From Halobellus limi (GTDB taxonomy: Archaea > Halobacteriota > Halobacteria > Halobacteriales > Haloferacaceae), in contig NZ_CP031311.1 of assembly GCF_004799685.1 (NCBI RefSeq), positions 1,736,001-1,800,000 on the forward strand: 64,000 nucleotides of DNA. Direction: 5' to 3'. The notes beneath the pieces were generated by a model, which ran no database searches, had not been told where the DNA came from, and worked only from the letters and a program-made list of their open reading frames with translations. Shown one piece after another: positions 11,504-15,557 of the stretch. Position 1 is the stretch's first letter. Every line of letters begins with the position of its first letter. A program made the translations under genes and the position numbers.

Positions 11504-11986
11504 ATGGCGGATCATCGGCTTCGACCAGACCCGCAACGAACGTCTGCGATCGAGCAGGACATCGATAGCGCAGTCTCCCCCCGCGTGATGGACACGGTCC
11601 GAACCGGGGCGAAGGCGCTGTTTGCCTCCCGGTCGAGGGTCCTGCTGATCGAGGAGCGGCGGGCCGATGGCTCGACGTTCTGGACGTTACCCGGTGGCGG
11701 AGTCAAACCGACGGAATCGTTGCGAGACGGACTTCACCGCGAACTCAGAGAAGAGCTCCGCTGCGCTGCGCGCCTCTCTGAGGACGTGGACAGTTGTCTG
11801 TATCGTCACCGTACGAAACCCGACACCGTGACCCACTACACGATCGTCTCGGGAACACTACTGACGTCTCCCGACCCCAACGCATCGGAGGACGTCGTCG
11901 GTTACGAGTGGGTGGACCCGGAGAATCCCCCCGAAACAACGCTCCCTCCGATCCAGGACGTTATTCGCGACTCGGGGCCCCTGTAG
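11504..11986 (+). CDS. NUDIX hydrolase
   Basis: A 160-residue (or 132-residue) NUDIX protein that hydrolyses nucleoside diphosphate-linked compounds. The NUDIX box is visible as GGVKPTESLRDGLHRELREE, matching G-x5-E-x7-R-E-x2-E-E. Two starts are possible. The ATG at 11504 is chosen because a TATA-like CTATAC (11473-11478) lies 29 bases upstream; the ATG at 11588 starts directly before the domain. Third-position G+C is lower than in neighbouring genes, and the gene borders the hairpin array, so recent acquisition is possible. The exact substrate is unknown. Confidence 0.8.
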   Translation: MADHRLRPDPQRTSAIEQDIDSAVSPRVMDTVRTGAKALFASRSRVLLIEERRADGSTFWTLPGGGVKPTESLRDGLHRELREELRCAARLSEDVDSCLYRHRTKPDTVTHYTIVSGTLLTSPDPNASEDVVGYEWVDPENPPETTLPPIQDVIRDSGPL

Positions 11987-12112
11987 GCTCCCCGCTGGTT
12001 AGTACGCGGGTCCAACAGTCCAGCGTCGCGAGCCGATCGGAACAGGGAGGTTTCGATGGCGGCGCAGCACACCGTCGACGAGCGGGTGTCTCACCGACGG
12101 AGCCGCCGGAGT

Positions 12113-12506
12113 TCCCGTGAGCGACTGACGGGAGCGAACGGGAGCACGGAAGAGCTCTGCTCTTCCGGAGGCGGCGGAGTCGGGCCCTTTTGATCCAGCT
12201 GTACTGGACGTTTCAGAGTACACGAGCGGGTTGCTGTCTCACCGATTTGTACCGCGAGGCGAGCCGGGCGGGACCGAAGGTCCCGCTGGAAGCCGGCGCG
12301 TAGCGCCGGCGACGAACGCGAGCCGAGCGGAATTTTTCCTCCGCCGTGAGACGCTGCGCGTCTCACGAGCCTTGCTTCGCTTCGCTCAGCAAGACAGGTT
12401 TTGCGCGGTGGGTTCCCGCAGCGAGCGGAGTTCCCGTGAGCCGAAGGCGAACGGGAGCACGGGAGAACGGAGTTCTCCCGGAGCGAGCGAGGAAACCCAC
12501 CGCGAC
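12113..12506. repeat. array of short perfect hairpins in a 530-base gene-free region
   Basis: The region from 11987 to 12520 has no convincing gene. It contains at least five perfect hairpins, nearly all with an 8-base stem and a 3-base loop: 12148-12166 (GGAAGAGC stem), 12268-12286 (GCGGGACC), 12292-12310 (GCCGGCGC), 12346-12366 (GTGAGACGC, 9 bases) and 12461-12479 (GGGAGAAC). A longer stem joins GCGGTGGGTT near 12405 with AACCCACCGC near 12494. A related motif, GTTCCCGTGAGC followed by GAACGGGAGCACGG, occurs twice (from 12111 and from 12430). It lies just downstream of nuoN. It may be a chain of mobile palindromic elements or a structured RNA. Confidence 0.7.
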
Positions 12507-12520
12507 AAAAAGGTGGGTGG

Positions 12521-14035
12521 TTAGAACAAGGCGGCGGCGACGGCCTGGGCGGTCTCGATGACCGGGCCGAACGCCGGCAGCAGCAGCAGCGTACCGAGGC
12601 CGGCGAACAGCACCGCGGCGTAGAGGCCGACCGGTCGGCTCGTGATCTCGAAGTCCTGTGCGGGCGACTCGATCCACATCGCCTTGACGACGCGGCTGTA
12701 GTAGAACAGCGACAGCGCGCTGTTGATCGCGCCGACGGCGGCGAGCCACCAGAACCCGGCCTCGATGGCCGAGAAGAACAGGGCGTACTTCGAGAGGAAG
12801 CCGCCGAACGGCGGCAGCCCAGCGAGGCTGAACATGAACACCGTCATCGCCACCGCGGCGATCGGTGCGGTCGAGGCGAGGCCGTTGTAGTCCTCGAACG
12901 TCCGGCCGACGCCCCAGTGTTCGACCAGGGCGATGAACAGGAACGCGCCGGTGTTCATGAAGCCGTAGACGAGCAGGTGCGCCATCGACGCGCCGAGGAC
13001 GTCGCCGTTCGGTCCGCCGGCGGTCAGCGCCGCGAGGCCGATGAGCGCGTAGCCCGCGTGACCGATCGAGGAGTACGCCAGCATCCGCTTGACGTTCTCC
13101 TGGGTCGCGGCGGCGAAGTTGCCGAGCGTCATCGTGACGACGGCGAGCACCTGGAACGCCAAGACCCAGTCGACGCCCGCCGGGATCGCGCCGAGCGGGA
13201 ACGCCTCGACGAAGACGCGGAAGGCGACGGCGAAGCCGGCGGCCTTCGACGCCGACGAGAGGAACGCCGAGATCGGCGCGGGCGCCCCCTCGTAGGCCTC
13301 CGGCGCCCAGAAGTGGAACGGCACGGAGGCGGTCTTGTAGGCGACGCCGCCGACGATCATCAGCACGCCCATCCCGAGGACGCCGGCCATCTCGGTGTCG
13401 CCGATGGCGGCGGCCACGTCACCGAGCACGAGCGATCCCGTGACGGCGTAGACGAGGCTGATCCCGAAGACCATCACGCCCGAGGAGACCGAGCCGACGA
13501 GGAAGTACTTCAGGCCCGCCTCGACGCTACCGCGGTTCTTCTTGAGGAACGCGACGAGCGCGTAGGAGGGCAGCGACGCGAGTTCGAGGCTGATGAAGAC
13601 CGTCGCCAGCGAGTTCGCCATCGACATCATCGTCATCCCCGTCGCGGCGAAGAGCACGAGCGAGTAGAACTCCGCGCGGTGGGACTGCTCGCGCAGGTAG
13701 TCGTAGGCGGCGACGGTCACCATCGCGGTGACGACGGTGAAGATGAGCGTGAAGAAGAGGCTCATCCCGTCGACGACCAGCGTGTCGCCGTACAGCGATA
13801 TCGGGCCGCCGGTCCGCTCCTGTCCGGTGCCGGCGACGAGGAACCACGCCGCGACGGCGAACGCGAGGAGCGAACCGCCGGCGGACACGCCGGCCAGGAG
13901 CGTGTTGCTCGTCTCCTTCGGGGAGATGGTGTCGATGCCGAGAAGCACCAGGCCGGTCAGCCCGAGCAGCAGCGCCGGGGCGAGTGCGGTCCACGCGGCG
14001 GCGGGTTCGGTCTGCAGTGCGATCGTATCGAACAT
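12521..14035 (-). CDS. nuoN: NADH-quinone oxidoreductase subunit N
   Basis: A 504-residue integral membrane protein of the antiporter-like Nuo/Mrp family, last gene of the nuo operon. It shows the family's proton-channel features, including SLELASLPSYALVAFLKKN with the conserved glutamate and lysines near residue 130, and KTASVPFHFWAPEAYEGAP near residue 210. About fourteen membrane segments are expected. It is one of the three proton-pumping subunits of complex I. The ATG at 14035 overlaps the nuoM stop as TGATG, the same style of junction seen elsewhere in the operon; a GTG one codon upstream is possible. Confidence 0.92.
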   Translation of the reverse strand: MFDTIALQTEPAAAWTALAPALLLGLTGLVLLGIDTISPKETSNTLLAGVSAGGSLLAFAVAAWFLVAGTGQERTGGPISLYGDTLVVDGMSLFFTLIFTVVTAMVTVAAYDYLREQSHRAEFYSLVLFAATGMTMMSMANSLATVFISLELASLPSYALVAFLKKNRGSVEAGLKYFLVGSVSSGVMVFGISLVYAVTGSLVLGDVAAAIGDTEMAGVLGMGVLMIVGGVAYKTASVPFHFWAPEAYEGAPAPISAFLSSASKAAGFAVAFRVFVEAFPLGAIPAGVDWVLAFQVLAVVTMTLGNFAAATQENVKRMLAYSSIGHAGYALIGLAALTAGGPNGDVLGASMAHLLVYGFMNTGAFLFIALVEHWGVGRTFEDYNGLASTAPIAAVAMTVFMFSLAGLPPFGGFLSKYALFFSAIEAGFWWLAAVGAINSALSLFYYSRVVKAMWIESPAQDFEITSRPVGLYAAVLFAGLGTLLLLPAFGPVIETAQAVAAALF

Positions 14036-15557
14036 CACAGTCCACCTCCCGTGAGGATCGGGTTAACGGCCTCCTGGATCATCCCGAAGAAGAGGTCGGG
14101 AGCGACGCCGAGCACGATCGTGAGCAGCAGCAGCACCGCGAGCGGCGCGACGTCGTGGAACGGCGCGTTCGTGATCTCGTACTCGCCGTCGAAGCTGAAG
14201 GGGCCGAACAGCGTCCGCTGCATCGCGAAGAGCAGGTAGCCCGCGACGATGACGATGCCGAACATCGCCGCCGCCGTGAACAGCGGCATCCCCGCGTGGA
14301 CGGTCGACTCGAAGGAGCCCTTGAAGATGAAGAACTCGCCCGCGAAGCCGGCCATCAGCGGCAGGCCCATGTAGCCGAACGCGCCGGCGACGAAGATGCC
14401 CGCGGTGAGGGGCATCCGGTCTGCGATCCCGGACATATCGCCGACCATCCGGGTGTGCGTCGTGTTGTAGATGACGCCGACCGCCATGAACATCAGCCCC
14501 GAGATGAGGCCGTGGGCGATCATCTGGAACGTCGCGCCGCCGACTCCGTAGGTGGTGTACGCGACGAGTCCGAGGATGACGTAGCCCATAGAGGACACCG
14601 AGGAGTACGCGACGATGCGCTTGAGGTCCTGCTGGGCCAGCGCCAGCATCGCGCCGTAGATGACGCTGATGACGGCGATGCCCGCGATCGGGACGACGAG
14701 CGCCGTCGCGACGTCCGGCATCATCGTGAAGTTGAACCGCAGGAGCGCGTACGTCCCCATCTTCAGGAGGACGCCCGCCAGCATCACCGACACCGGCGTC
14801 GGCGCTTCGACGTGAGCGTCCGGAAGCCACGTGTGCAGCGGCGCGACCGGCACCTTCACCGCGAAGCCGAGGAACGTCGCCACGAAGGCGACCGTCTTCA
14901 GCGTCGCGGCGTCGAGGCCGGCGAACGCGCCGAGTTCACCGGCGCGGAGCGCCTGGGCGATCTCGGGCAGGCGCATCGACGACACCGAGTCGCCGAGGCC
15001 GAACACCAAGGCGATGAAGCCGATGAACATCACGAGCGACGCGACGTTGGTGTACACGAAGAACTTGATCGCGGCGTAGCGGCGGTTCGGACCGCCCCAG
15101 ACGCCGATGAGGAAGTACATCGGGACGAGGACGGCCTCCCAGAAGACGAACCACGCGAAGAAGTCGAGCGCGGTGAAGACGCCGATGAGGTTCGCCTCCA
15201 TAAAGAGCATCAGTCCGTAGAACTGCGACTCCCGCTCCGTGATCGGCGTCCACGCGCTGACGATCGCCAGCGTGGAGAGGATCGTCGTGAGGACGACGAG
15301 CGGCAGACTGATGCCGTCGACGCCGACGAACCAGTGGAGGTCGAGGCCGCCCAGCGTCAGCCAGACGGCGTCCGTCTCGAACGCGATCGAGCCGCCCAGC
15401 AGGGCGTTCCCGCTCGCGTCGTACTGTGCCCACATCCAGAGGCTCCCGAGGATCGGGAGCGCGCTGAGTGCCGCCGCGAGTCGGCCGGCGTACTCGTCGG
15501 GGGCGACGAACACGACCAGCGCGGCGAGGAACGTGACTGCGATGAGCGCTTCGATTA

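Follow-up and report, generated by a model that had tools for sequence, protein, structure and literature searches.

A candidate inside-out, two-way terminator with exchangeable hairpins at the 3' end of nuoN in Halobellus limi

Transcription in archaea ends by a route different from that of the bacterial hairpin. The bidirectional intrinsic terminator of bacteria is composed of an A-tract, a hairpin, and a T-tract, in that order, and MITEs form a further class of palindromic sequence that is non-coding, inverted-repeat, and multi-copy. Among the closest described systems is the U-tract terminator of Haloferax volcanii, where the motif T5C gave 95% termination in an in vivo reporter (PMC7237163). 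It should be stated that this reporter evidence was obtained in another genus and with the T5C motif, not with a whole element of the kind analyzed here. Also comparable are the REP/BIME sequences, which are described in the accessible parts of PMC3733652 and PMC12306157 as short intergenic palindromes, often located close past stop codons and assembled into mosaics; the string “halo” does not occur in the main text of either paper. The element located at the 3' end of nuoN in Halobellus limi resembles each of these systems in part. It is filed here as a putative two-way terminator of gene ends with inside-out polarity and exchangeable hairpins.

The window analyzed is a 64,000-nt stretch of the H. 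limi genome, in which the hairpins occupy a GC-rich gap between two convergent genes, nuoN and a NUDIX gene, as listed in Table 1. A sequence-only reading had noted at least five perfect stem-loops here, mostly with 8-base stems and 3-base loops. With a criterion of a perfect stem of at least 8 bp and a loop of 3-5 bases, five were indeed obtained in 12111-12506, all with 3-base loops, although only two of the five stems are 8 bp long. The longer outer stem of that reading is also present, formed by pairing of 12399-12417 with 12491-12509. In 1,000 dinucleotide shuffles of the region, the mean number of such hairpins was 0.041 and the maximum 1, and the RNA fold of 12090-12520 displayed z = -6.67. 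The remainder of the 64-kb window contained 17 such hairpins, compared with an average of 13 in whole-window shuffles. In a 400-kb grid sample of the genome, which happened to contain none of the full element copies found, hairpin density was 1.9 per 10 kb in noncoding and 2.4 per 10 kb in coding DNA, and the idea that intergenic DNA in H. limi is generally hairpin-rich was rejected. The shuffle deficit and the lack of a noncoding excess in the sample therefore indicate that the cluster is local and not due to chance. Clusters of this type are not general in the genome.

Table 1. Features of the nuoN-NUDIX interval, in window coordinates
Feature	Position	Strand	Remarks
Convergent NUDIX gene, far side of the element	11504..11986	+	Pfam NUDIX E=3.3e-14
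Hairpin 2 of the likely remnant	12094..12183	-	outer arms 12094-12107 and 12170-12183
Second D-type cassette, inside hairpin 2 of the likely remnant	12106-12168		includes the perfect 9-bp hairpin 12147-12167
Perfect hairpin	12147-12167		stem 9 bp, loop 3
Likely remnant linker of a second element (CTGGATCAAAAGGGCCCGACTCCG)	12175..12198	-	resembles the linker beside a D-type cassette at locus L128
Hairpin 2, enlarged by cassette F	12249..12330	-	perfect hairpins 12292-12310 and 12268-12286
Perfect hairpin	12268-12286		stem 8 bp, loop 3
Perfect hairpin	12292-12310		stem 8 bp, loop 3
Second T5 tract TTTTTCCTCC	12333..12342	+	T5C opposing transcription that enters from the NUDIX gene
Cassette E, in the linker	12343..12394	-	hairpins 12371-12393 and 12345-12367 (perfect, 10 bp)
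Perfect hairpin	12345-12367		stem 10 bp, loop 3
Linker AAAACCTG, CAGGTTTT on the (+) strand	12395..12402	-	A4/T4 here; most of the other copies have A5/T5
Hairpin 1, 3' arm, type A	12403..12425	-	from the sequence
Cassette D, in the hairpin-1 loop	12426..12481	-	hairpins 12460-12480 (perfect, 9 bp) and 12432-12456
Perfect hairpin	12460-12480		stem 9 bp, loop 3
Hairpin 1, 5' arm, type A GTCGCGGTGGGTTTCCTCGCTCGCT	12482..12506	-	from the sequence
Element start CCACCTTTTT	12507..12516	-	T5 begins 10 nt past the nuoN stop; same start in Halobellus copies
nuoN, with the element at its 3' end	12521..14038	-	ORF; Pfam Proton_antipo_M E=6.8e-70; TAA stop 12521-12523

Regarding the two genes, nuoN was matched in all 17 of the Halobellus genomes searched. 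The NUDIX gene has too low a codon-usage score, on the usage of the window itself, to be called, and it is missed by the gene finder, a home-made program for which seven of the window's ORFs served as training set. The nuoN locus of Halobellus rarus (G089, a name assigned from the equal spacing of matches) shows no nucleotide match to this gene. The NUDIX gene may have arrived recently.

The array is explained by a frame that the sequence-only reading had overlooked, namely the T5/A5 tracts and the position directly past the nuoN stop. Repeats of the element elsewhere on the main contig were revealed when part of the region, and afterwards a consensus, was used to search the genome. In the grammar of the element, a stop codon and a few bases are followed by C(C/T)ACC-TTTTT, hairpin 1, GCAAAAACCTGGAGGGAAAAA, and hairpin 2, which often ends in GCGGTAC. 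Its palindromic frame can be written as C(C/T)ACC-T5 / hairpin 1 / A5-NN-T(G/A)G...A5 / hairpin 2, with CYACC and CTGGA/GAGGG as the conserved ends of elements. On the minus strand, starting at the nuoN stop, the window copy comprises C(C/T)ACC-TTTTT, hairpin 1, AAAAA-CCTGGAGGG-AAAAA, and hairpin 2, and is enlarged by extra hairpin cassettes in the hairpin-1 loop, the linker, and hairpin 2. The T5 of the element start is the proposed U-tract terminator for nuoN. Hairpin 1 occurs as type A (GGTGGGTTTCC...GGGAACCCACC), type B (GGAGGGGTCC-nnn-GGACCCCTCC), type C (CCTCGGGTTCGC-nnn-GCGAACCACTCGG), and further types. Three optional cassettes of two hairpins each are recognized, D in the hairpin-1 loop, E in the linker, and F in hairpin 2. 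Cassette D is also present in hairpin-1 loops of H. rarus and of genome G085, which is assigned in the same way to H. captivus, and is missing from the nuoN copy of G088; cassette F also occurs at locus L018, with stem-changed versions at L026 and L101. The stretch 12094-12198 is likely what remains of a second element, one that carries a D-type cassette too. The presence of cassette D twice explains the module that had been reported as shared by the blocks at 12111 and 12430, which is recovered as 25-nt copies at 12098 and 12417 (84% identical) and 37-nt copies at 12134 and 12447 (81%). As further details, the 3-base loop of the second E hairpin (12355-12357 in the window) varies among many copies, the stem being nearly invariant, and a composite hairpin-1 type at L145 and L148, with a GAAGCGAGAC stem beside cassette E, differs from types A-C.

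The polarity of this arrangement separates it from the bacterial bidirectional terminator, which it resembles in being a palindrome near gene ends that is bordered by T and A on opposite sides. In the element the order is T-tract, hairpin, A-tract, and across 116 genomes T5..A5 pairs outnumbered A5..T5 pairs by 757 to 243, being more frequent in 78 genomes, less frequent in 22, and equal in 16. A hairpin followed by a T-tract on both strands, as in the bacterial type, was not found in the element: a T-tract precedes hairpin 1 on both strands, and only hairpin 2 has a T5C after it, on a single strand. Because the T-tract comes first on both strands, the element is “inside out” in comparison with bacterial terminators, and the palindrome is not a terminator hairpin in the bacterial style.

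The position of the element was assessed in 74 parsed copies, gathered by the linker pattern from the fetched loci, 66 of which are from Halobellus. In 44 of the 74, a stop codon lies 0-12 nt before CCACC (observed range 0-9, median 3.5), so that a T-tract stands just past the coding sequence as in a U-tract terminator, and the stop criterion was satisfied by 10 of 1,480 positions drawn at random from these loci. A further 14 copies lie less than 80 nt from the start of a divergent gene, 9 have another setting, and 7 have no called gene. Among these remaining 16, inspection by eye revealed a tRNA-like 3' end before four (L024, L049, L061, L096) and a stop codon missed by the gene finder before three (L002+, L062, L149-). 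Loci L152-L181 and L202-L211, mostly outside Halobellus, supplied 43 places: a stop precedes the T5 side in 11, a convergent stop lies no more than 35 nt from the opposite side in 15, the place stands ahead of a divergent start in 6, and 11 show none of these. The possibility that T5 past the stop is the norm of the genome was rejected, any T5 within 30 nt of the stop being found at 3 of 227 sampled gene ends. Hence the T5 belongs to the element, and since the other 224 ends have no nearby T5, the element is unnecessary for termination in general. A strong preference for convergent neighbours was not found, the far side being co-directional in 22 cases, convergent in 17, and not called in 5. 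Gene names besides nuoN and NUDIX, and tRNA, were recognized by eye; the genes bearing the element, such as nuoN, acs, radA, ilvE, dnaJ, DNA polymerase large subunit, TFS, and others, we take by eye to be core functions. The nuoN ends in relatives were located by tblastn, that is, by protein and independently of the motif. Among 16 other Halobellus nuoN loci, 6 carry the element, 9 do not, and one is cut off; in the seven nuoN orthologues with the element, a T4-T5 tract and two A4-A6 tracts are kept, and hairpin 1 differs widely. The element thus has T5 at gene 3' ends, exactly T5C in many copies, in common with the Haloferax U-tract terminator as presented in the accessible text of PMC7237163, and differs from it in having a T-tract each way, a kept palindrome between, and repeated linker and hairpin modules. 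Hairpins occur there upstream of some termination sites, whereas the hairpin of the element is downstream of the T-tract.

The stems of these elements are maintained through compensatory change. For 71 hairpin-1 sequences from many genera, hand-chosen from the matches listed with many near-duplicates left out, pairing of a hairpin's own arms averaged -19.2 kcal/mol, compared with -13.4 kcal/mol for swapped arms, and none of 500 same-length permutations reached the real sum. In an alignment of 22 sequences of one type, also hand-chosen from the matches listed, 93.9% of cells were paired, against 80.3% in shuffles, and 41 cells, counted as sequences and not as events, had changed on both sides, against 14.3 in shuffles. 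Six pairs had changed on both sides in this alignment, which is not an unusual number (245 of 500 shuffles). Sliding the partner by 1-3 columns lowered pairing to 38-56%. The stem extends beyond the T/A tracts, where the outer pair is C-G in 87, T-A in 12, and G-C in 3 of 107 cases; this covariation was matched by 0 of 2,000 shuffles over all 61 distinct rows and by 17 of 2,000 in the 39 distinct rows of the 74-copy set alone. The fixed T/A tracts amid covarying pairs suggest that T on both strands is needed for itself. Together with similar elements throughout the genome and the order, these changes bear out the earlier view that constant shape with changing sequence reflects selection for structure. 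A structured RNA in the sense of a riboswitch or ncRNA, which had been offered as one form of it, fares poorly: the Rfam scan of both strands of the 64-kb window gave 0 matches above the gathering score, and little is conserved beyond the T/A tracts and the linker. A tRNA scan of the window found none.

The family is widespread in salt-loving archaea and apparently undescribed. Among 170 genomes of the family (28 genera), the exact linker was detected in 14 (3 genera), and the reversed control had 0 matches; 30 of the places found were taken as loci. A relaxed pattern, CTTTTT-N22-52-CAAAAA-N-CT-N-GA, occurred in 48 of 151 family genomes (11 of 25 genera) and, across the order, in 97 of 243 genomes (41 of 71 genera), with 1 match to the reversed control in each survey. 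The window genome holds 18 matches and the richest genome of the order survey up to 26. No description of the element family was recognized in a literature search, subscription papers being mostly outside its reach.

Hairpin types are exchanged between sites that themselves persist across species. At 22 sites, at least two genomes, Halobellus included, share the element at the same gene end, often with a different hairpin type, and one additional shared site belongs to a Haloferax pair. Mean identity of hairpin 1 was 0.630 at orthologous sites (56 pairs), 0.665 between other sites of the same genome (345 pairs), and 0.603 when both genome and site differed (1,744 pairs). Position thus retains a slight memory, orthologous sites exceeding those that differ in both. 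Of 59 copies, 36 have their closest hairpin 1 in a paralogue elsewhere in their own genome and 23 do not; rows of Haloferax and Halogeometricum are excluded from the means and included in this count. At one pair of facing gene ends (L018/L051), the two hairpin types are swapped between the window genome and H. rarus. An inversion was considered for this pair and dropped, as the spacer is collinear and the hairpins alone are exchanged. At L018 (~1977, minus), hairpin 1 also looks recombinant, its outer pairs being broken because a 5' arm of type C is combined with an outer 3' arm of type A. Elsewhere (L009, 1535-1712 and 2718-2883, compared with L065), two facing elements enclose flanks whose orientation is reversed between the same two genomes. 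These patterns point most simply to recombination or conversion between copies, that is, to concerted evolution, and such exchange would account for the constant shape with changing sequence.

One alternative is that the elements are non-autonomous mobile palindromes, similar to REP/BIME or MITEs, which insert at gene ends and whose terminator activity is a by-product. This would suit the fit of copies at unrelated sites of one genome to a single consensus at up to 97%, the occurrence of cassette E at 17 places in 5 of 17 Halobellus genomes, after an A4/A5 linker wherever the flank is readable, the private change shared by all five E copies of genome G093, and the nesting of D in the hairpin-1 loop at nuoN in the window genome and at another gene end in H. 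rarus. The reading of D at nuoN as an insertion was set aside as unpolarised, G088 being without D and loss fitting too, and the same applies to F. The 22 shared orthologous sites, however, favor retention over random insertion, and neither a clean empty site nor a constant target duplication was seen by eye around Halobellus copies. MITEs, with which the element shares its non-coding, inverted-repeat, multi-copy character, are marked by terminal inverted repeats, a constant target duplication, and a partner transposase; the element stands at fixed orthologous sites. Abundance is also low: REP/BIME palindromes are conserved and number hundreds of copies, whereas the 18 pattern matches in the window genome have unconserved, freely varying stems and are defined by T5/A5 tracts and the CTGGA linker. 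A GTAG or CGTC tag at one end and an associated tyrosine transposase (RAYT) are further marks of REP/BIME. Insertion as the primary explanation is accordingly judged unlikely. The suggestion of a palindromic mobile element in the sequence-only reading holds to the extent that cassettes recur and swap between sites, but not for the sites themselves, which are fixed at gene ends.

The reading preferred here is that the element is probably a two-way transcription terminator or insulator, of which the nuoN copy is an enlarged member of an order-wide family. Many copies have CTTTTTC past the stop and TTTTTCCC on the other strand, and on both strands the T-tracts face incoming RNA polymerase. A polymerase leaving nuoN would release at TTTTTG, 10 nt beyond the stop. 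One arriving from the NUDIX side would cross the hairpin-2 cassettes and release either at the TTTTTC of 12333-12337 or at the TTTT of 12399-12402. Between the T-tracts, the GC-rich palindrome may serve as a backstop against read-through and as a separator of converging polymerases, and an element placed before a divergent gene would shield its promoter from read-through. Cassettes D, E, and F would be spare hairpins that recombination or conversion among copies brings in and that are tolerated since any stem suffices. Against a terminator, the long palindrome, the nested hairpins, and near-identical sequence at many loci are not obviously required.

A strand asymmetry is also unexplained by the terminator model. 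Predicted RNA folding was lower on the strand opposite the gene for hairpin 1 in 64 of 71 and 63 of 74 copies and for hairpin 2 in 41 of 60, and hairpins with tandem G-A mismatches were confined to that strand in three sets (5/64 vs 0, 13/59 vs 0, and 7/28 vs 0; 25 vs 0 together). The asymmetry hints at an opposite-strand RNA or at single-stranded DNA. If the hairpins acted in such an RNA, they would be 3'-end protectors or processing signals for transcripts from the other side, in keeping with the location of hairpin 2 ahead of T5C on that strand. Hairpin 1, however, lies past two T-tracts and would be untranscribed if those terminate well, tandem-GA patterns are frequent in this genome (189 on the two strands of 400 kb), and G-U and G-A terms of the energy model may contribute to the folding asymmetry. 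A role in opposite-strand RNA therefore appears a doubtful explanation. Less likely still is that the palindromes are DNA sites, as cruciforms or as sites for nucleoid or topology proteins, with transcription incidental. Near-perfect palindromes of variable sequence would suit recognition of shape, and the elements recombine with each other, but constant T5/A5 tracts and a fixed distance from the stop codon point to transcription, and a strand bias is unexpected for a cruciform. Chance hairpins of GC-rich DNA, in spite of the composition of the region, are refuted by the region shuffles, none of which yielded as many hairpins, and by the order-wide survey, where reversed-pattern controls were near zero genome-wide, leaving this origin a negligible likelihood.

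A bolder version of the two-way terminator reading is advanced tentatively, as a conjecture that we would sooner doubt than believe. An order-wide, inside-out terminator would have its cassettes shuffled and nested by active recombination between facing copies or by single-stranded hairpin copying, the strand-biased G-A mismatches marking the single-stranded or RNA stage. If true, structure would be inherited by position and sequence from elsewhere in the genome. The family provides a large natural set of gene-end palindromes kept for shape, with the pattern found in 41 of 71 sampled haloarchaeal genera, and a clear case in which structure is kept by wholesale exchange instead of point-by-point compensation. 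It makes testable the role of a hairpin behind the T-tract and the reason a palindrome is required. The elements are also a source of inversions and gene-end rearrangements, and their parts could serve as insulators in haloarchaeal genetics.

Several minor observations concern individual genomes and the shorter copies. In genome G092 (contig C80, 146517-148030), the nuoN match falls into two overlapping pieces, residues 245-505 and 1-252 (96% and 83% identical), which may reflect a frameshift or a mosaic gene. In family f3, genus g30 (G200, G220, and G226 among others) is the richest in the pattern, with 17-26 matches per genome, and T6 replaces T5 in many of the matches listed. The outer stem of the element is inverted, and duplications, variable in length, are frequent at copies of the Haloferax type. 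Short elements often lie between direct repeats of 16-35 bp (L154, L155, L157, L159, L162, L166, L167, and L178, at about position 1500). When five of these loci were read on the gene strand, the repeat proved to copy the tail of the neighbouring gene together with the stop codon. Tandem arrays of a gene tail plus element also occur, with three such tails in L178.
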